Shown here: positions 3,484-33,373 of the stretch, one piece after another
How positions within the stretch are numbered: the first letter of the stretch is position 1
Layout: the number at the start of each line of letters is the position of its first letter
Notes under the pieces: model-generated
What the model saw: only the letters and a program-made list of their open reading frames with translations
The model's database searches: none
Told to the model about the DNA's origin: nothing
Made by a program: the position numbers and the translations under genes
NCBI GenBank assembly: GCA_016212965.1
Contig: JACRDA010000276.1
Location: 1-64,000, forward strand
Length of the DNA: 64,000 nucleotides
Origin: Myxococcales bacterium
Lineage (GTDB): Bacteria > Myxococcota_A > Polyangia > Polyangiales > Polyangiaceae
Direction of reading: 5' to 3'

Positions 3484-4527
3484 ATGAGCGCGCCATCCTC
3501 GTGGGGTCGGGATCGAGTCGGAAACGCTCTTCTCGGTGGACTCTTCGTGTGGATGTTGGCGACGCCGGCCTGCAGCGGCGGCGGCGAGGTGCCGCCGGTG
3601 TCCGTCCCGGCAGTGCCGTGCGCTGGTGACCCGTGGTCCGACGACGTTTGCATCCAGGGCGGTGAGTTCACGATGGGGCACGAGGCGCTGCCGTACGAGC
3701 CACCTGTGTGCGCCCCAGGCGAGGTCTGCGGCCCCGGGAACCCGCCACCGAAGGACTTCGTGCCGCCACACAAGGTGAAGCTCAAGCCGTTCTTCATCGA
3801 CCGCTATCCCGTCACGAACGGGCAGTACAAGAAGTGCTTCGACGCTGGAATGTGCCCAGGTGATTGCGAACCTGGCGGATGCCAGGGCGGCTTCTTCGAC
3901 GTGTACCACATGACGGACCCGCTGCTCGCCGCCTACCCCGTGGCGACCGTGACCTTCGCGGGGGCCGACGCGTACTGCCGCTGGGCGGGTAAGCGCTTGC
4001 CGACCGAGGCGGAGTGGGAGCGCGCGGCTCGTGGTCCCGAGTCGTTCGATTATCCGTGGGGCAACGACGCACCCGACTGCACGAAGTACACGTGCGACCC
4101 GGGTCCGGCTCCGTTCGGCTGGTCGTTCTATTGGTTCCTACCCGTTGGGACAAGCCCCGGCGACGTGTCGCCAGAGGGCGTGCACGAGATGGTGACCAGC
4201 GCCGTAGAGGTCGTGCACGACCTGTACGACCCGTTCTACTACGAGTCGTCGCCGTACGAGGACCCTCAAGGCCCGTCGAACGTGTGGACAGTCAGCCACG
4301 CGGCTCGAGGCGATCTCTTTCTGCGGGGCTGGGTCGCGGGGAACATCGTGTTCAACGGGGTCCGGTCACCGCTTCCCGCCTGGGTGCGCGATGGGTCGTG
4401 GTCCGCGTCCGGTGTCCGATGCGCCCGCAGCGACGACGGTGCACCGGCGTCGCGGGAGAATTTCCATCGGCTCAGGCAGAGAGTGCTTCTCGGCGGCCGC
4501 CTGTCCCCGCGCACGGGTGCGCCATGA
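3484..4527 (+). CDS. FGE/SUMF1-type (formylglycine-generating-enzyme-like) domain lipoprotein
   Basis: Signal peptide with lipobox-like LATPACSG; F.IDRYPVTNGQYKKC and AYCRWAGKRLPTEAEWERAARG motifs; ATG at 3484 inside supplied ORF 3361-4527. Confidence 0.85.
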   Translation: MSAPSSWGRDRVGNALLGGLFVWMLATPACSGGGEVPPVSVPAVPCAGDPWSDDVCIQGGEFTMGHEALPYEPPVCAPGEVCGPGNPPPKDFVPPHKVKLKPFFIDRYPVTNGQYKKCFDAGMCPGDCEPGGCQGGFFDVYHMTDPLLAAYPVATVTFAGADAYCRWAGKRLPTEAEWERAARGPESFDYPWGNDAPDCTKYTCDPGPAPFGWSFYWFLPVGTSPGDVSPEGVHEMVTSAVEVVHDLYDPFYYESSPYEDPQGPSNVWTVSHAARGDLFLRGWVAGNIVFNGVRSPLPAWVRDGSWSASGVRCARSDDGAPASRENFHRLRQRVLLGGRLSPRTGAP

Positions 4528-5843: not shown

Positions 5844-7123
5844 TCGGTCAGTGTCACCCGCCCACATCGGGCGGGACTGCCACCCTGATCGCGCCCTCGG
5901 CATGCGATCCGTTCGCACCGCCCCCGATGGTTCGCGTAGCGGCATCCGGTGACTACCACCTCACGATTCGAGGCGCCGACGATGGTAGCGGCGGTCCAGT
6001 TTCCTCTGTCATCTACACGCTCGGCGAGGAGGCGGCTGTCGGCGCGGTTGCCGGCGATATGCGCGTCAACGTGGGCACCGCGGAGGCCACAGCCGCAATT
6101 GATATCGCGGAGACACGCATCTTTCCGGCCGACGTCGCAATCGGCGACCTTGCCATGACCAGCGCCGTTGTGAGTACTGCCGAGCGCCCGTTCGGGCACT
6201 TCACGACCGACACGGTGTTTTCCGTGCCCGCAGGCGTCGGCGTGCTCGTAGCTCGCGCCAACCTGAACGGTGAGCTGATTGGCGTCAACGTCGTCAACCC
6301 CGCCCCGTATATCGGAACGTTCGACCTGGCCGCCCGGACCTTCTCGTTCAGCATACAAGCGAGCAGCGGCGGCGATAGCACGGATCCAGACAGCCAGACC
6401 TCCATCGTGGCGTCTCTCTACGGCGTGATCGACAACGTGCCACCAGTGGCGGACGCTGGCGGCCCAGCGCGCACAGTGGAGTGCGCCTCGCACACCACGA
6501 CGCCCGTCGTGCTCGCCGGCCAGGGGTCCTACGATCCGGACGCTGGCGACTCGATCACGCACTACCAGTGGTTCACCTCTCTGGGCGGCCCCGTAGGCAA
6601 CCATCCGGAGGAGGCTGTTGCGTTGCCCTTCGGCAAGTCGCTCTTCGTGCTTCATGTGTATGACCTCGACCTCAGTGCGGCTCAGACGCCTCTCGAGGTG
6701 AACGTGGTGGACACGACCCCGCCCACCCTCGACGTCGAGCCCACGTCGTTCTGTCTGTGGCCGCCGGACCATCGGCGGGTGCGGTTCCATCTTGGGAGCG
6801 ACGTCAGCGCCGTCGCTGGCGACATCTGCGACCCGGCGCCCACGGTGCGAATTACTTCGGTGTCCAGTGATGAGGCGGACAATGGGATCGGCGACGGGGA
6901 CGCCACCGGTGACATCGCGTTTGGCCCCATCGACTTCTGCGTTCGTCGGGAACGGGCGGGTACCGGGGACGGTCGCGTCTACACGGTCACGATCGAGGCG
7001 CGGGACTTCTCTGGCAACACCACGGTGAGGGAGGTCCGAGTGGCGGTGCCACACGACCACGAGCCGGGCTGTGCGGGGAAGACTGCCGGAACGGTCATCG
7101 GTGACGCCGACCCCTGCCATTAG
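5811..7123 (+). CDS. PKD-like domain C-terminal part of the same secreted protein (frameshifted)
   Basis: VADAGGPARTVEC...SYDPDAGDSITHYQW PKD-like module; no signal peptide of its own; ORF 5792-7123. Confidence 0.7.
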
Positions 7124-8666: not shown

Positions 8667-8760
8667 CGTGCGGGAGCGTGAGCGCGTGCGGGAGCGTGAG
8701 CGCGTGCGGGTGGGGGTGGGGGAGCGCGTGCGGGGGCGTGAGCGGGAGGGTGCGGGGGCG
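8667..8760. repeat. GC-rich low-complexity array (18-bp tandem gtgcgggagcgtgagcgc x2 plus degenerate units)
   Basis: Direct reading of the sequence. Confidence 0.85.
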
Positions 8761-8863: not shown

Positions 8864-9403
8864 TCAACCCTGGCATATGGGGTGACTCGAACAATCGGTG
8901 CAGCCGCAACCCTCGTTGACCGGGTCGCACAGGCCGTCGTTGCTGCAATGGGACGTGCACCACGCGTCCGTGTCGCAGCTCGGGCACACGCAGTCCGAGA
9001 CGGCGTTGTTGCCGCTGTCCGTGCACTGCACGTGGCAGCCGAGGCAGCCGCACTCCGCCGCCAGCGTCGGGTCGCAGAGTGTGTCGCTGATGGCAACGGT
9101 GTCGCACGCCAGGGTGCTGGTGCTGGTGGTGCTCGTGGTGGTGCTGGTGGTGGAGCTGGTCGACGTCGTCGTCGTGGAGCCGGTGGTACCGCCCCCCGAG
9201 GCGCCCGACCCTCCGCAGTCGCAGGTGCTCCAGCCGCTGGCGTCGGCTCTGCACGTCTGCGCGCCGTCACACTGGCCTGGACCGAGGCACGCCCTCGTGT
9301 CCCCTTTGATGCACAGGCCGCCTGCCTCGTCCTGGCCACAAGCCGCGCCGATCGCGAGGTACGCGGTGGCGGTGATCCATAGCAAGTGCAGTCTCGTCGA
9401 CAT
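8864..9403 (-). CDS. Cys-rich lipoprotein with Ser/Thr linker
   Basis: Signal AYLAIGAACGQ, GTTGSTTTTSTSSTTSTTTSTTSTSTLAC linker, Cys-rich C-terminus. Confidence 0.85.
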   Translation of the reverse strand: MSTRLHLLWITATAYLAIGAACGQDEAGGLCIKGDTRACLGPGQCDGAQTCRADASGWSTCDCGGSGASGGGTTGSTTTTSTSSTTSTTTSTTSTSTLACDTVAISDTLCDPTLAAECGCLGCHVQCTDSGNNAVSDCVCPSCDTDAWCTSHCSNDGLCDPVNEGCGCTDCSSHPICQG

Positions 9404-9819
9404 GACGTTCCTCCGGTATCGGTCGATCTTGGTAAGAAGCTCGCGGGCGACCGCTGGCAGCTACTGACAGGCGCTCACCGAGCTCTGCGCCGCCACTCAA
9501 GGTGTGCTCGCAGCGTACGGGCCGACGACCCCGAGCACCATTACAGCCCATTACAGCAGCCCCTCACAGACATGCCGTTAGGGAAGCTCGGGGCTGCAGG
9601 GCGGCGTGTTCCTTGAGGAATCCGTGCGACGGTCGGCCGCAGGACCGCGGTCGCTGGGCCGGTGCACGGGGCCTGAAACGTTGGGATGGCGCACGGCCCG
9701 GCGGACACGCGATCGCGACCGCGAGCCGCGGCGTCGCGCTCGCTCTCGGCGGGTCTGGACGATCGCGGCGTCGATCCGGCGCTGGCGCTCGCGAGTGTCG
9801 CGGCCCTGCTGGAGCGGTG

Positions 9820-11046
9820 TCACGCGCCCGGATCGCGGCCGAGGACGAAGAACGTCGTCTCGCCCGGGGCGGTCACGGCACCCAGCCACAGGCGCCCCGT
9901 CGCGTCCGCCATGAGCGACACGGCCGTGCCCGGTGTGGCGAGCGTGATCGCGGTGTGAGCCGGGCCCACGGCTCCGACGAGCGCGTCGGAGGTGATGTAC
10001 CGCAACCCGACGACGTCGAGCGCCTCGAAGCTCGTCGGATCGAAGGGCTGGAAGAACACGAGCCCGGGTGCAGCGCCCGCTCCACCCATGGCCGCGAGCT
10101 CGCTGCCGAAGCCCGGCAGCGTGAAGAGCTCGACGCCGTCGGTCGCGGGAGCGCCGGGAGCGACCGTGCTCGCGGCGAACCCGCGCAGCGCGAGGTCGCC
10201 CGTCGAGAACGACGTCTCGACGACGAAGACGTTGCCGTCCGCGTCGAGCGCGATCGGGCCGTTCGCCTCGCCCCAGCTCGCCACGGGCCCGGAGGCGCAT
10301 AGATCGAGGCCGGCGCAGAAGTCGGCCGAGTAGGCGGCCGGCAGCGGGGGCGCCGAGGCGCCCTCGGCGAGCGGCGTGAGCCCGGTGTAGAGCAGGCGCC
10401 CGCCCGCCGGCGCGCCGATGCCGACGCCGTCGAAGAAGCCCGACACCGCGAAGCGAGCGGCCACAGCGGCGCCGGTCACGAGCAGGACTTCCCCCTCGCT
10501 CGTGCCGAAGTCGCCGGTCCAGGAGAGCAAGGTGAAGGCGCCGAAGGGTAGATCGATCGCCGTGGCCCCGAGGTACACGCTGCCGCTCGCGACGATGCCG
10601 AGCGGCACGCTGGTGGTCGCGCCTGCGAGCACGCCGGTCGCAGTCGCGGGCACCGCGAAACGCGTGACGTCGGCCGTACCCGCCGTGCCGCCGGCACCGA
10701 CGACGAGCGGCCCTCCATGCCGTCCCCAGGTGGGGGAGAGCGCGTAACCCACCTCGAAGGGCGCCGTGTACTTGCCGACGAGGCAAAGGCCCGGCTCGTC
10801 GAGGGCGAGGACACCGGCATGCTCGGCCGGATCGAGGCACGGCGCCACGCCGCCAGCACCGCCGCCGCCAGCGCCGCCGCCGCCAGCGCCGCCCGTGTCG
10901 CTGCCTCCCAAGTTGGCCCCGGCCGCCCCGGCCGCGCCACCCGTCTCTCCCGAGCCCGTCCCCGCCGCAGTGCCATCCATGTTCACGGGGCACGCACCAA
11001 GCAGCACGCACACCCATGCCAAAAGCGAAATCTCGACCCGCTTCAT
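9820..11046 (-). CDS. Surface lipoprotein with Gly-rich linker, possible beta-propeller; under a cobalamin riboswitch
   Basis: MKRVEISLLAWVCVLLGACPV lipobox; GGAGAAGANLGGSDTGGAGGGGAGGGGAGG linker; ggaggtcggtATG RBS. Confidence 0.85.
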   Translation of the reverse strand: MKRVEISLLAWVCVLLGACPVNMDGTAAGTGSGETGGAAGAAGANLGGSDTGGAGGGGAGGGGAGGVAPCLDPAEHAGVLALDEPGLCLVGKYTAPFEVGYALSPTWGRHGGPLVVGAGGTAGTADVTRFAVPATATGVLAGATTSVPLGIVASGSVYLGATAIDLPFGAFTLLSWTGDFGTSEGEVLLVTGAAVAARFAVSGFFDGVGIGAPAGGRLLYTGLTPLAEGASAPPLPAAYSADFCAGLDLCASGPVASWGEANGPIALDADGNVFVVETSFSTGDLALRGFAASTVAPGAPATDGVELFTLPGFGSELAAMGGAGAAPGLVFFQPFDPTSFEALDVVGLRYITSDALVGAVGPAHTAITLATPGTAVSLMADATGRLWLGAVTAPGETTFFVLGRDPGA

Positions 11047-11179
11047 ACCGACCTCCGTGGGCGCAGTCCCGCACCCTGGGTTGGGTCCCCACCACGCAGG
11101 GCATCGAACGAGCTCGGGTGCCCTCGCGACGAGGTTGCGTGGGAGCGAGCAGGCGCATGCCTGCCCGGTCCAACGCGCA

Positions 11180-11393
11180 GTCGCGCGCAGCAGGTCTCCT
11201 GGCTTCCGGATCGTCCTCCGGCGACGCCTTCCCGAAGCTCGTCGTCCGTGCGCTCCTTGCGAAGCGCGCGGGCGTCCGACGCCCAGTGGCGAGTGTCGCC
11301 TTCGTACCCGGTTACAGTGGCGGGAGCCGCGCCGGAATCGGTCGAGGACGGCCTCGAGCCTCACCGGCTTCCCTCTTGCCCGGTGCACCCACG
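11180..11393 (-). promoter_or_regulatory. Cobalamin riboswitch
   Basis: Reverse complement contains GGGAAGCCGGTGAGG...GGCTCCCGCCACTGTAACCGGG...CTCGCCACTGGGCGT...GGGAAGGCG...CCGGAAGCCAGGAGACCTGC in the expected order. Confidence 0.92.
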
Positions 11394-11510
11394 GAATGCG
11401 GCCGAGACCGCGTGGCCGTGAAGGCACCGACTGCGTGCCGTGTTGTCAACGACGGGCGGCTAAACGAACCACCCGCGGCTGAGAGGCCTAACCGCATCGG
11501 CGCGAGCGCG

Positions 11511-11592
11511 CAAGCGGGCGCGGGTGCGGGTGCGGGTGCGGGGGCGGGTGCGGGGGCGGGTGCGTGAGAGGGTGCGGGGGCGGGGGCTGGGC
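11511..11592. repeat. GC-rich low-complexity array (gcgggtgcgggtgcggg...)
   Basis: Direct reading. Confidence 0.85.
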
Positions 11593-11861
11593 TCGGCGGT
11601 CGGGGCGGCGTGTCGGCTGCGCGTGCGCTTGCGCCAGCGACGCCCTTCCGGAAGTACGGTCCGCCGTCGGCGATCCGCGCGCGTTCGCACCGCGCTCGGA
11701 GCACCGCGCGGCCGTCGGCCCGTGCGCACTCGCCACGTGCTTGCGGGCATCTGCCGAGAATCCGTTGCTGCGGTTGCGCTCGTGGGCGCCGTCGCGTTCG
11801 CGGTGGCGGTCCACATCCTGCTCCCCTTGCGCTCCTTTCGGCATGGCGGCATCTTTGTCCC

Positions 11862-12716
11862 ATGGCGCGTTCGGCTCTGCTCGCAGCTTGGCTCCTCATG
11901 AGCGCCTGTGGCGGCCGGAGCTCGCTGCCCGCCCGTGGCCATGGCCCGGCGACTGGTACCGGTGGCCAGGGTGGCAGCGGTGCGGCCGGCGGCGGCGCAG
12001 GCGGAGCAGGGGGCGCTGGCGGCGTCGTGTACCCGCCCGGCTGCGTTCCGGGTCTCCCAGGTCCACCCATCATCGAGGTGCCCGACCTCCAAGGCGGCAG
12101 CTACTGCATCGACTCGACCGAGGTCACGAACGCCGACTACGCCACCTTCCTCGCCGCCAACCCGAGCACGGCCGGGCAGACGGCCGATTGCACGTGGAAC
12201 ACGAGCTTCGTTCCGGCGGAGGGTTGGCCGCCCGCGCCTGACCGCGACGCCTACCCCGTCGCGTGGGTCGACTGGTGCGACGCGGCCGGCTACTGCGCGT
12301 GGGCGGGCAAGCGCCTCTGCGGCCGCGTTGGCGGCGGGGCGCTCGGCGTCGACGACTTCGACCCGGTCGAGAACGAGTGGACGAACGCCTGCACGACCGG
12401 CGGCACGTTCGAGTACCCCTACGGGCCGACGAACGATCCGAGCGCATGCAACCAGGGCCATGCTCCGGACCAAGACGCGCTACTCCCCGTGGCGAGCCTA
12501 CCCACTTGCGAGGGCGGGTCGGGCCTCTTCGACATGGCCGGTAACATCAACGAGTGGACGAACGCGTGCTCCGGCCCCGGCGAGTTCGACTGGTGTCGCA
12601 CCATGGGCGGCGACTTCTACTTCATCAACAGTGAGGGTTGCTACCACGAGCTCGGCTTCGCTCGCTCCGGCCCATGGATCGTGACCGGCATTCGCTGCTG
12701 CCGCGACGCCCAATGA
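11862..12716 (+). CDS. FGE/SUMF1-type domain lipoprotein with Gly-rich linker
   Basis: Lipobox LLMSACGG; YCIDSTEVTNADYATFLAA; YCAWAGKRLCGR; GLFDMAGNINEWTNAC; GIRCCRD. Confidence 0.88.
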   Translation: MARSALLAAWLLMSACGGRSSLPARGHGPATGTGGQGGSGAAGGGAGGAGGAGGVVYPPGCVPGLPGPPIIEVPDLQGGSYCIDSTEVTNADYATFLAANPSTAGQTADCTWNTSFVPAEGWPPAPDRDAYPVAWVDWCDAAGYCAWAGKRLCGRVGGGALGVDDFDPVENEWTNACTTGGTFEYPYGPTNDPSACNQGHAPDQDALLPVASLPTCEGGSGLFDMAGNINEWTNACSGPGEFDWCRTMGGDFYFINSEGCYHELGFARSGPWIVTGIRCCRDAQ

Positions 12717-12725
12717 GACGACGCA

Positions 12726-13085
12726 CTACTGCCAAAGTGGGCAGGGCACGCCGGCATCACTCGAGTTGAGGTTGCAGCAGTAGCCGCCGGGCGTGAGCAG
12801 GGACAGGTTACAGTATCCTGCGACGAAGCCGTTGGCCCTACAGTCCTCGAACAGGGTGCAGGGGCGCGAACAGAAGTCGACGGGGTACTGCTCACTCTCG
12901 TAGCTCACGGTGCCACGATGGCAGACCATGCCCTCGGGACACTGCTCGTCACACTCGCAGATCTGGCTCGCACCGACAGCAGCGTCGGGGCAGTTGTCGC
13001 ATCCACCGACCGAGGCCGCAGCGACCAGCGCCGAGCAGGCCGCGCCGGCGAGAACCACGAGCGCGCAGCGCGCAGCGCCGATCAT
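12726..13085 (-). CDS. Small Cys-rich secreted protein
   Basis: Signal peptide from M at 13085; ATGA overlap with upstream gene. Confidence 0.7.
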   Translation of the reverse strand: MIGAARCALVVLAGAACSALVAAASVGGCDNCPDAAVGASQICECDEQCPEGMVCHRGTVSYESEQYPVDFCSRPCTLFEDCRANGFVAGYCNLSLLTPGGYCCNLNSSDAGVPCPLWQ

Positions 13086-15088
13086 GGGCAGCCAGGCCCC
13101 CCGTACGAGACGTCCTGCTCCACGAACCCGTGCTGCCACACGGGCACCGTGCCGTCGGCTCGGCTCGCGGGACCGTGGCAAAAGTCGACCGCTGAGCCGT
13201 CACCGCCGAAGTAATCGATGACCGTAGGCAGCAGCGAGTAGAGCAGATACGTGTCCCACGAGCAACGAGTGAGTGGCTCGGGTGCGACGACGAACTCGAG
13301 CACGTCGGGAAGCACGTTGATCGCCTCGAAAATCGGATGGAATCCGCAAACGGTGTTCTCACTCGTGGGGTCGACCGGAACGCAGTTGAAGTTCCTCTTC
13401 TCAACCGCTGCCGTCATCCGCGTCGCCAGCACCTCTGCCTCGTCCTCGCCATAGGTCCCGACGAGTGCAGGCCTGAAGAAGTCGTGCAGCAAACCTGATG
13501 CAACAACCTCCTGATAGCAGCCGTCCTGTGCGCCGGGCCCTGGCGTGCACGGCGTGTGGATGGGCGGCAGAAAAGTCGCCTCGTCCTCGATGTTCTTCGC
13601 AACCGTCGCCGGCAGCGTCGTGCTCAGCGCTGCCTGCAGTGCGGACGTATTGGCGATGCTGATGACACCTTGACGGACGTTTTCGAGCTCGACGAGGCCG
13701 TCGCCGGGCCGGACGTGGAACACGTAGGCCGGATTCATGTAGATGCCGATGTCCACGCCCCCGAACACGCCGCCGATGCCGGTCACGGTGTAGTGCGCCT
13801 CGAAGGAGAAACCATGGCGGATGTCGAGCCCGTGGCCGATGAAGCTCGGCGCGAAGCGGTCCCAGTCGCGCCATGCAGCAGTCGCCTCGCAAACGGAGTC
13901 GTCGACACCGGTCGCGAACTCCGCGAACAGCGTCGACGAGATCGGGTCGAAGACCTCCGACCAGGGTGTCCGAACCGCGCACTGCCCGTGCCAGTAGCGC
14001 ACGATGTGGGCCGTCTTGTACGGCGCGGGGAAGGTGTACTGCTCGGTGGATCCCATCGGGACCGACGCGAAGTCGTTTTCGACCGGGACGTAGTAGACGT
14101 TGTCGAGATTCGGATCGGGGTTCACGACGGGCGCCGCCCAGTCGAGGTCGAACGCGATGGCTTCCTGGCGCGGGTCCTGGGCCGGGAAGCCCGGTGTGAA
14201 CGACAGCGTCTGCTCCGCGCCGTCGTAGGGGACGCAGCCGAGATCACCAAGCCCCCACGCGTACGTCCAGTTGCCGCCGATCACGTGCGGCGAGATGCCG
14301 CACGCGCTGCTCAGGTTCACGGCGGCGACGGGGTAGATCGCCCTCGGGTCCTCGCAGCCGGGATTGCACGACGCGCACTCCCCTGCGCAGCAGGTGTCGG
14401 CCAATGCGCAGCGGTTGCCGCAAGCGCCGCAGTTATCCGGGTCGTTGTCGACCGCGATACACCCGCCGTCGCAGCACATCGTGCCCGCAAGGCATGCGCG
14501 CCCGCAGGCTCCACAGTTTGCCTCGTCCGTCTGCAAGTCGGCACAGTACGCGGCGGCGAATCCGCCAAGTCCCTTGGTGCAAACGCTGCCGTGACACTGG
14601 CACGTGCCGTTGTCGCAATCCGGAGCGGTCGCGGGGCACCTCCGGCCGCAAGAGCCACAGTGGCGTGGGTTCTCGAACGTATTGACGCAACCGAACGCGG
14701 CTTTGCCCGGTGTGCCCACGTTGCAGCATTGCGCAGCTCCCGGACAGCCCACGTGGACTGGGGAAGGATTGCAGCCACCGCCGGGAGGCCCACCTGCCGC
14801 TTGGGCATCGAGAGTAGGTTCGACCGCCAAGTCATCGACGGGCGCGGGACACGCACCCAGAGTGTCGCCGTGGGCGAGGTGGGCGGGCACCGCGGCTTCG
14901 GCGACCGTGAGGGTCGCTGCCAGGGACGGATCTCCCGGCGGGTTGTGACAGATGACGGTGCCGTGATCGCCATGGCCGAGCGGCACGAGCGCGGCGCCGC
15001 CGACGCCACCCGCATCCGGAGGCGCCTCGCCGACACAGCCCAGCAGCATGATCCCCACGAAGCTTGCGAAGAACGCCTTCTGCACCAT
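13082..15088 (-). CDS. Large Cys-rich lipoprotein
   Basis: MVQKAFFASFVGIMLLGCVGE lipobox; repeated C.NVGT..., HCGSCGRRC, NCGACGRAC, NCGACGNRC motifs. Confidence 0.88.
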   Translation of the reverse strand: MVQKAFFASFVGIMLLGCVGEAPPDAGGVGGAALVPLGHGDHGTVICHNPPGDPSLAATLTVAEAAVPAHLAHGDTLGACPAPVDDLAVEPTLDAQAAGGPPGGGCNPSPVHVGCPGAAQCCNVGTPGKAAFGCVNTFENPRHCGSCGRRCPATAPDCDNGTCQCHGSVCTKGLGGFAAAYCADLQTDEANCGACGRACLAGTMCCDGGCIAVDNDPDNCGACGNRCALADTCCAGECASCNPGCEDPRAIYPVAAVNLSSACGISPHVIGGNWTYAWGLGDLGCVPYDGAEQTLSFTPGFPAQDPRQEAIAFDLDWAAPVVNPDPNLDNVYYVPVENDFASVPMGSTEQYTFPAPYKTAHIVRYWHGQCAVRTPWSEVFDPISSTLFAEFATGVDDSVCEATAAWRDWDRFAPSFIGHGLDIRHGFSFEAHYTVTGIGGVFGGVDIGIYMNPAYVFHVRPGDGLVELENVRQGVISIANTSALQAALSTTLPATVAKNIEDEATFLPPIHTPCTPGPGAQDGCYQEVVASGLLHDFFRPALVGTYGEDEAEVLATRMTAAVEKRNFNCVPVDPTSENTVCGFHPIFEAINVLPDVLEFVVAPEPLTRCSWDTYLLYSLLPTVIDYFGGDGSAVDFCHGPASRADGTVPVWQHGFVEQDVSYGGPGCP

Positions 15089-16495: not shown

Positions 16496-16565
16496 TGGAA
16501 TCCAAGGATTGGCAAGGCTCGGCGCCGTCCGCGAAGTGTCGGGGCGGTCCGGCAAGCGTCAGGGC

Positions 16566-16691
16566 GGCTTACCGGACTGTCGGGCCGGCTTACCGGACTG
16601 TCGGGCCGGCTTACCGGGCTGTCGGGGCGGCTTACCGGACTGTCGGGCCGGCTTACCGGACTGTCGGGCCGGCTTACCGGACTTTCGGGGC
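16566..16691. repeat. 21-bp minisatellite, six units of ggcttaccggactgtcgggcc
   Basis: Units begin at 16566, 16587, 16608, 16629, 16650, 16671; third and last units diverged. Confidence 0.95.
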
Positions 16692-16809
16692 GGAGGCGCG
16701 CGGTCTCTCGGCGGGTGCCCGGCGTGTTACCCTCGCCGACGCAAGCGCGGTCGTGGCTCCGGACGCTCCCAGGCTCGCGGCGCCCGCCCGCCGGCTGGCT
16801 CGAGGGCTG

Positions 16810-32092: not shown

Positions 32093-33066
32093 GCGAGCTC
32101 GACCTCCGGCTGCCGGCCTGGGTCGAGCGCGTGCCCGCGTGGCTCGACGGCCAGCCGACCACGCGCCTCATCTTCATCTTCCGCGCCATCGGCTGCGCCT
32201 ACGCGCGCCGGCTCGACGGCGGCTGCACCATGTGTGGCTTCGCCGAGATGTCGACCAAGGGCGAGCGCGTGCCGCCCGAGGATCTCGTGGCGCAGCTCGA
32301 CTCGGTGCTCGACGCGCCCGGGGCGCTCGACGGGGTCGGCGAGGTGGATCTCTACAACTCGGGCTCCTTCTTCGCCGACCAGGAGATCCCGCCCGAGGTG
32401 CGCGCCCACGTCCTCGGCCGGCTCGGGCGCTCGACGGTGCGGCGCGTGCTCGTCGAGGCGCGCCCGGAGCACGTCAAGGCCCACGACCTCGCCGCGGCGC
32501 GGGCGGCGCTCGGGGACCGCGAGCTCGAGGTCGGCATCGGCCTCGAGAGCGCCGACGATCACGTGCGCGAGGTGCTCATCCACAAGGGCTTCGGACGCGC
32601 CGATTTCGAGCGCGCCGCCCGGGTGCTGGGCGAGGCGGGCGCGCGCCTGCTCGCCTACCTCATCATCAAGCCGCCGGGTCTCTCCGAGGCCGAGGCCGTC
32701 GAGGACGCGGTCGCCTCGGCGCGCTACGTCTTCGAGGTCGCGGCCCGCACGCGCGTGCGCGCGCGGGCGGCGTACCAGCCGACCTTCGTCGCGCGCGGCG
32801 CCCTCGTCGAGCGCGAGTTCCAGGCGGGGCGCTACCAGCCCCCGAGCCTCTGGTCCGTCGTCGCGATCGTGCGGCGGGCCCACGCCTCGGGCGAGCTCAC
32901 GGTCGGCCTGAGCGACGAGGGGCTCGAGCCGCACCGCCTGCCGTCGGGCTGTGCGGCCTGCACGCCGCGCCTGCGGGCCGCGCTCGCGGAGTACAACCGG
33001 ACGCGGGAGCTCGGGGCGCTCGAGGGGCTCGCGTGCGCGTGTGCGGGGGCGGGGGCGTGTGAGTGA
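32089..33066 (+). CDS. Radical SAM protein, RaSEA-like (archaeosine-biosynthesis-type) family
   Basis: RAIGCAYARRLDGGCTMCGF cysteine motif, LYNSGSFF, GIGLESADDHVREVLIHKGF, YLIIKPPGLSE; GTGA overlap with carbamoyltransferase. Confidence 0.85.
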   Translation: MSELDLRLPAWVERVPAWLDGQPTTRLIFIFRAIGCAYARRLDGGCTMCGFAEMSTKGERVPPEDLVAQLDSVLDAPGALDGVGEVDLYNSGSFFADQEIPPEVRAHVLGRLGRSTVRRVLVEARPEHVKAHDLAAARAALGDRELEVGIGLESADDHVREVLIHKGFGRADFERAARVLGEAGARLLAYLIIKPPGLSEAEAVEDAVASARYVFEVAARTRVRARAAYQPTFVARGALVEREFQAGRYQPPSLWSVVAIVRRAHASGELTVGLSDEGLEPHRLPSGCAACTPRLRAALAEYNRTRELGALEGLACACAGAGACE

Positions 33067-33128
33067 GCGGGGGCGGGAGCGTGGGCGGGGGCGTGAGAGT
33101 GGGCGGGGGCGGGTGAGTGGGTGGGAGC
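33037..33128. repeat. GC-rich low-complexity array (gcgggggcgggagcgtgggcgggggcg...)
   Basis: Direct reading; starts inside the 3' end of the radical SAM ORF. Confidence 0.85.
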
Positions 33129-33373
33129 GTCGAGCTCGAGATCGCCACGCTGTTCGGGGACGATCCGACGGTCTGACGCGTCCGCCTGGACGCCCTTGCG
33201 ATCCGGCGGGCGCCGAGGACGCTCGACCCGGTGCTCGGCTGCGCCAACCCGTCCGCTACCCCGGCGCCGCACGTCGTGGCGAGCGACCTCGCCACGGGCC
33301 ACGTGGCGGAGCAGGGGCGCAGCGAGCTCCGGTAGACCCGAGTACCGTCGTGGGGCAAAGTGCCCTCGGACCC

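Follow-up and report, generated by a model that had tools for sequence, protein, structure and literature searches.

A cobalamin riboswitch precedes a probable corrinoid-capture lipoprotein of propeller-like fold in Polyangiales

BtuG, a surface lipoprotein of Bacteroidetes, is a seven-bladed propeller that binds cobalamin (B12) very tightly and caps the receptor BtuB (PMC6143338, PMC10404256); BtuG2 has been deposited as 3DSM (PMC6143338). BtuH, BtuK and BtuJ (DUF4465) are accessory B12-binding lipoproteins encoded in riboswitch-regulated loci (PMC8941943, PMC12751083, PMC13398666). The gene described here likewise encodes an accessory-type lipoprotein under a B12 riboswitch, but it stands alone, whereas the genes of BtuH, BtuK and BtuJ sit in loci with transport genes. 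Unlike BtuJ, a DUF4465 jelly roll, its family has no Pfam match, and the DUF4465 domain was not found in the protein (Pfam, E up to 5). It resembles BtuG in being a riboswitch-controlled lipoprotein of a probable propeller fold class whose host appears to scavenge B12, and differs in having no sequence match to BtuG, in lacking a btuB neighbour and in belonging to Polyangiales rather than Bacteroidetes. The controlled gene family is not among the RF00174 targets described in the papers that we found, and no description of it was found in the literature searched, coverage of which was incomplete.

We analyzed a stretch of 64,000 nucleotides (the window), contig C181 of a 9.0-Mb Polyangiales assembly that is 86% complete. 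An earlier note on this DNA had placed a cobalamin riboswitch core on the minus strand, upstream of a lone lipoprotein gene. The five motifs that it quoted are all present and in order, and RF00174 was the only RNA family matched in the whole window (cmscan; 11427-11172, minus strand, model positions 1-189, complete). The Infernal comparison with RF00174 that the note had proposed gave 73.1 bits (E = 4e-16), far above the gathering cut-off of 31.5. The riboswitch is therefore real, but the quoted end at 11393 was too short, as the aptamer reaches 11427. Its spacing from the gene is as had been claimed, with the 3' end of the aptamer about 125 nt before the ATG at 11046. The features are as follows.

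9820..11046, minus strand: gene of a 408-aa lipoprotein (P0001), stop included (coding to 9823), from translation
11052..11056, minus strand: Shine-Dalgarno GGAGG, from the sequence, 5 nt before the ATG at 11046
11059..11076, minus strand: P13/L13 hairpin GGGTGC-GGGACT-GCGCCC, predicted expression platform, directly 5' of the Shine-Dalgarno
11172..11427, minus strand: cobalamin riboswitch aptamer (RF00174), from cmscan, found again genome-wide as one of two in this genome (G000)
11321..11325, minus strand: loop L5 UCCCG, aptamer half of a predicted kissing loop, complementary to CGGGA at 11067-11071

G-rich repeat arrays with a 6-bp periodicity (GCGGGT, GCGGGA, GCGTGG) occur at 11514-11584, 8667-8760 and 33031-33130 of the window, one of them some 90 nt 5' of the riboswitch.

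P0001 begins with MKRVEISLLAWVCVLLGAC, which comprises an n-region, a hydrophobic stretch and the lipobox LGAC ending in Cys19. The signal peptide is followed by a Gly-rich linker (approximately residues 20-69), as expected of the Gly-linker lipoprotein that had been described, and by an all-beta, propeller-like domain (approximately residues 70-405). The protein has the features of a signal peptidase II lipoprotein, and the lipobox Cys is invariant in 17 aligned homologues. The motif W-G-R-H-G-G-P at 107-113 is also invariant in the family, and the Cys pairs C70/C88 and C244/C250 are conserved in most members. No homologue of known function was detectable: P0001 matched neither Pfam (E up to 5) nor NCBIfam, and the family profile had no convincing sequence match in the PDB.

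As had been noted from the sequence, no recognizable B12 gene lies beside the lipoprotein gene. Its downstream neighbour is a 179-aa Cys-rich ORF (8864-9403) without a Pfam match, and upstream lies a divergent gene for an FGE-sulfatase-domain protein (11892-12716, plus strand). The lipoprotein gene is apparently transcribed alone. A search of the minus strand from 9300 to 11700 showed no intrinsic terminator after it. The window encodes two FGE-sulfatase-domain (SUMF1-like) proteins, both on the plus strand (3484-4524 and 11892-12716), the second with a lipoprotein-like start. Another of its products, a 667-aa protein (13085-15085, minus strand), contains a STIG1-like Cys-rich domain (Pfam E = 2e-12); the name of this family comes from plants. 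At 16558-16693, a 21-bp unit, GTCGGGCCGGCTTACCGGACT, is present in 6.5 copies with 93% matches; because 21 is a multiple of 3, this repeat is open in several frames.

The fold of P0001 was predicted with AlphaFold2 from 18 sequences (mean pLDDT 83.4, pTM 0.80). The model consists of over 20 strands with next to no helix; 283 residues score at least 90, the core lies mostly above 90, and residues 1-65 fall below 50. Foldseek retrieved 52 PDB matches at E up to 0.001, with modest TM-scores (TMq 0.24-0.44). Those that we could recognize among the matches listed are overwhelmingly propellers, of differing blade number (NHL, WD40, sialidases, plexin/semaphorin and PLL lectins); the top ones include sialidases and PLL/AofleA lectins. 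An all-beta core resembling beta-propellers is thus well supported by the model as a fold class, which supports the earlier guess, and the modest TM-scores to solved propellers mean that blade number and binding site are not fixed by it.

We identified 49 full-length homologues (>200 bits in a profile search) in 43 of 184 Polyangiales genomes. None was found outside Polyangiales in a 379-genome sample of the phylum, apart from weak hits confined to the Gly-rich N-terminus, which were discarded as low complexity. The search beyond the phylum used one protein motif against 84,980 genomes, and the named relatives that it returned are all Polyangiaceae, Myxococcales or 'delta proteobacterium' MAGs. 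Judging from these sequence searches, the family is found only in Polyangiales. Most of the nameable genomes are MAGs, in which the absence of a gene may be an assembly loss.

The earlier reading had been tied to homologues of the lipoprotein lying downstream of B12 riboswitches, and it clearly survived this check: RF00174 scores above its cut-off immediately before 36 of the 49. The count becomes 37 with a homologue (G167) before which the 3' end of an aptamer is preserved at the contig edge. One homologue (G117) has no upstream sequence. The remaining 11 homologues comprise six second copies (G000, G001, G043, G131, G177 and G135), each in a genome that also carries a switch-linked copy, four genes in genus g20, and one in G141. 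Counting the G167 aptamer, the first copy follows the switch in 37 of the 42 genomes that could be assessed. The chance of linkage is ~5e-5 per gene by a simple, rough estimate, which is not a probability over independent trials because the family members are related. Switch-linked members occur in every deep branch of the family tree, which excludes nine of the 49 homologues (motif filter), and the unlinked ones are scattered. The neighbourhoods of the switch and lipoprotein gene differ between genera, indicating that the two have been kept as a unit.

The genus of the window has two copies of the lipoprotein, which form sister pairs in the tree. The second copies, without a riboswitch, lie at G000:C233:7840-9078 (locus L114) and on G001:C645 (L115). 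The C233 copy has the neighbourhood of riboswitch-linked copies in other genera, with ~180 nt to its upstream gene, and the window copy has retained the switch at a different location. The C233 copy apparently lost its switch after duplication.

The statement that no B12 gene adjoins the switch holds for the window and needs correction for the genome, where a second RF00174 element (G000:C487:3607-3842) precedes a BtuB-type operon. The first gene of this operon encodes a 251-aa lipoprotein, the second a TonB-dependent receptor and the third a 417-aa protein. Among solved structures, the receptor is closest to E. coli BtuB (E = 1e-15). It shares RF00174 control with the window locus and, unlike it, includes a receptor gene. 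The 251-aa lipoprotein weakly matches the Leptospira family LIC_13355, below the cut-off (E = 1.5e-10), and its homologues occur at a number of further riboswitch loci in Polyangiales. Profile comparison gave no support for the 417-aa protein as a relative of the window lipoprotein. Receptors matching that of the operon (E up to 1e-20) are present in 29 of the 43 family genomes, at other loci. No BtuB-type receptor was seen in the family loci out to 5 kb, as far as the contigs allow, so that 'lone' describes the lipoprotein gene across its family.

We used CbiC and CobJ/CbiH as markers of B12 synthesis. The genome of the window encodes MetH, lacks CbiC and has no CobJ/CbiH match above cut-off. 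Both markers are also missing from a close relative in the genus whose assembly is 96% complete, so the window's genome likely belongs to a B12 auxotroph dependent on uptake. Neither CbiC nor an above-cut-off CobJ/CbiH was found in 38 of the 43 family genomes, which are on this ground likely B12 auxotrophs, and both markers are present in only five. The MetH activation domain is found in 35 of the 43, including that of the window. Both markers are present in all four family-bearing g20 genomes, none of which has a switch on the lipoprotein gene; G101 has the markers and the switch. The association between markers and switch absence (Fisher p = 2e-4) ignores relatedness and carries little weight; the switch loss in B12-synthesizing g20 is suggestive but concerns one clade and perhaps one event. 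Across Polyangiales, RF00174 occurs in 171 of 184 genomes and CbiC in 14 of 184; as a rule, members of the order appear to take up B12 without making it. Because ~92% of the order lacks CbiC anyway, we make no claim that the family is enriched among auxotrophs; about three quarters of Polyangiales genomes lack the family, and most of these also lack CbiC.

In some genera only, genes for a 561-aa and a 993-aa protein follow the family gene, and they also stand behind riboswitch-less copies. We therefore rejected a conserved downstream operon and regard the pair as likely positional. In G135 (locus L161, G135:C7, reverse complement), a paralogue without a riboswitch runs to 6029, and the very next gene, at 5984-6775, encodes a homologue of the BtuB operon's 251-aa lipoprotein. 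The protein might be a B12-regulated surface propeller (a lectin, adhesin or hydrolase) that does not bind corrinoids and is produced during B12 starvation to gain B12 indirectly, for example through attachment to prey cells or their lysis. Polyangiales include known predators, sialidases and PLL/AofleA lectins rank among the top structural matches, and the downstream pair includes a protein with an esterase match in several loci. We nevertheless consider this unlikely, because the esterase neighbour occurs in only part of the genera and stands behind copies without a riboswitch as well, and because the G135 paralogue adjoins the B12-operon lipoprotein homologue instead.

The same neighbour bears on the side of the envelope that the protein faces. 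A lipobox and a long flexible Gly linker would equally fit the inner leaflet of the outer membrane, and in Myxococcota sequence alone does not reveal whether a lipoprotein is sorted to the surface. The lipoprotein could then transfer or store corrinoids inside the envelope, in the manner of BtuF, rather than act at the cell surface. The propeller-like fold and the link to the BtuB-operon lipoprotein suggest the outer-membrane side, and we regard a periplasm-facing protein as quite improbable.

The leader was compared with described cobalamin riboswitches. The published consensus for the L5 side of the kissing loop is UCCCG (PMC10653944). The window L5 (11325-11321) is identical to it and has a five-base complement in the L13 sequence CGGGA (11071-11067). 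With its full match to the model, its L5 UCCCG and a complementary L13 on the RBS side, the window aptamer is like other RF00174 members, and an L5-L13 kissing-loop platform is predicted in the leader. We counted hairpins that have a stem of five or more pairs, carry GGG within or beside the loop and end shortly 5' of the start codon. By this definition, 28 of the 36 homologous leaders have a P13-like hairpin abutting the Shine-Dalgarno, versus 5.1 expected from dinucleotide shuffles, and its 3' end mostly lies 10-18 nt from the start codon. The stems vary in sequence yet stay paired (GGGTGC/GCGCCC, GGCAC/GTGCC, TCGATGCCG/CGGCATCGA and CCGACCTGG/CCAGGTCGG). The recurrence of a P13/L13 hairpin with an L5-complementary GGG loop against the Shine-Dalgarno suggests translational control by P13 beside the RBS.

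When the leader was folded alone, the Shine-Dalgarno paired with the GACCU of the aptamer and P13 was absent, so the sequence does not fix the sense of regulation. Such pairing would fit a riboswitch that activates, the protein being made under plentiful corrinoid for storage or export. Riboswitches at uptake genes repress, to our knowledge, and the fold in question includes only a minor part of the aptamer. There is one known corrinoid riboswitch that activates, that of A. halodurans cobT, but P13 abuts the Shine-Dalgarno here as in repressing translational switches (PMC10653944), and activation is in our view very improbable. That the aptamer stands before this gene fortuitously, being a relic or regulating another gene, finds support only in the lack of any B12-related annotation at the locus. 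It is barely credible given that the two are linked in 37 of the 42 assessable genomes and that a conserved hairpin lies at the Shine-Dalgarno of the lipoprotein gene.

P0001 is most likely an unrecognized B12-scavenging protein, a role to which the conserved riboswitch, the genomes without B12-synthesis markers and the G135 paralogue beside the BtuB-operon lipoprotein homologue all point. More specifically, by analogy it is probably a lone riboswitch-controlled corrinoid-capture lipoprotein that works like BtuG, without detectable BtuG ancestry or a btuB neighbour. The BtuG analogy drawn in the earlier note holds for the lipoprotein, the riboswitch and the propeller-like model, and fails for sequence homology and btuB adjacency. 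Among PDB chains, the family profile retrieved no BtuG (E up to 1), so the protein is not a BtuG by sequence, and membership was rejected on this ground and on context. Because the anchoring, switch and probable fold are shared while homology and neighbour failed, our leading proposal is that the protein works like a BtuG, and we do not claim that it is one.

Under this proposal, the lipoprotein would be made when cellular corrinoid is scarce, since P13 would not be stabilized and the RBS would be open. It would be anchored in the outer membrane, where one face of the propeller would bind corrinoids, and would pass them on to a TonB-dependent receptor of BtuB type whose gene lies elsewhere in the genome. 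Plentiful corrinoid would bind the aptamer, and L5 (UCCCG) would kiss L13 (CGGGA); P13 would then form against the Shine-Dalgarno and translation would stop. It is plausible, and we suggest it tentatively, that this is a stand-alone, riboswitch-driven family of corrinoid-binding propellers that evolved in Polyangiales with a non-BtuG sequence and serves receptors whose genes lie elsewhere, so that B12 capture by a propeller would have been invented a second time, outside Bacteroidetes.

Detailed accounts of lipoprotein-assisted B12 capture come from gut Bacteroidetes. If the family binds corrinoids, the same strategy would operate in an order that is mostly, it appears, unable to make B12, and would have been arrived at there through another protein, whose gene is uncoupled from that of the receptor. 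The proposal gives a testable function to an unannotated protein family of Polyangiales.
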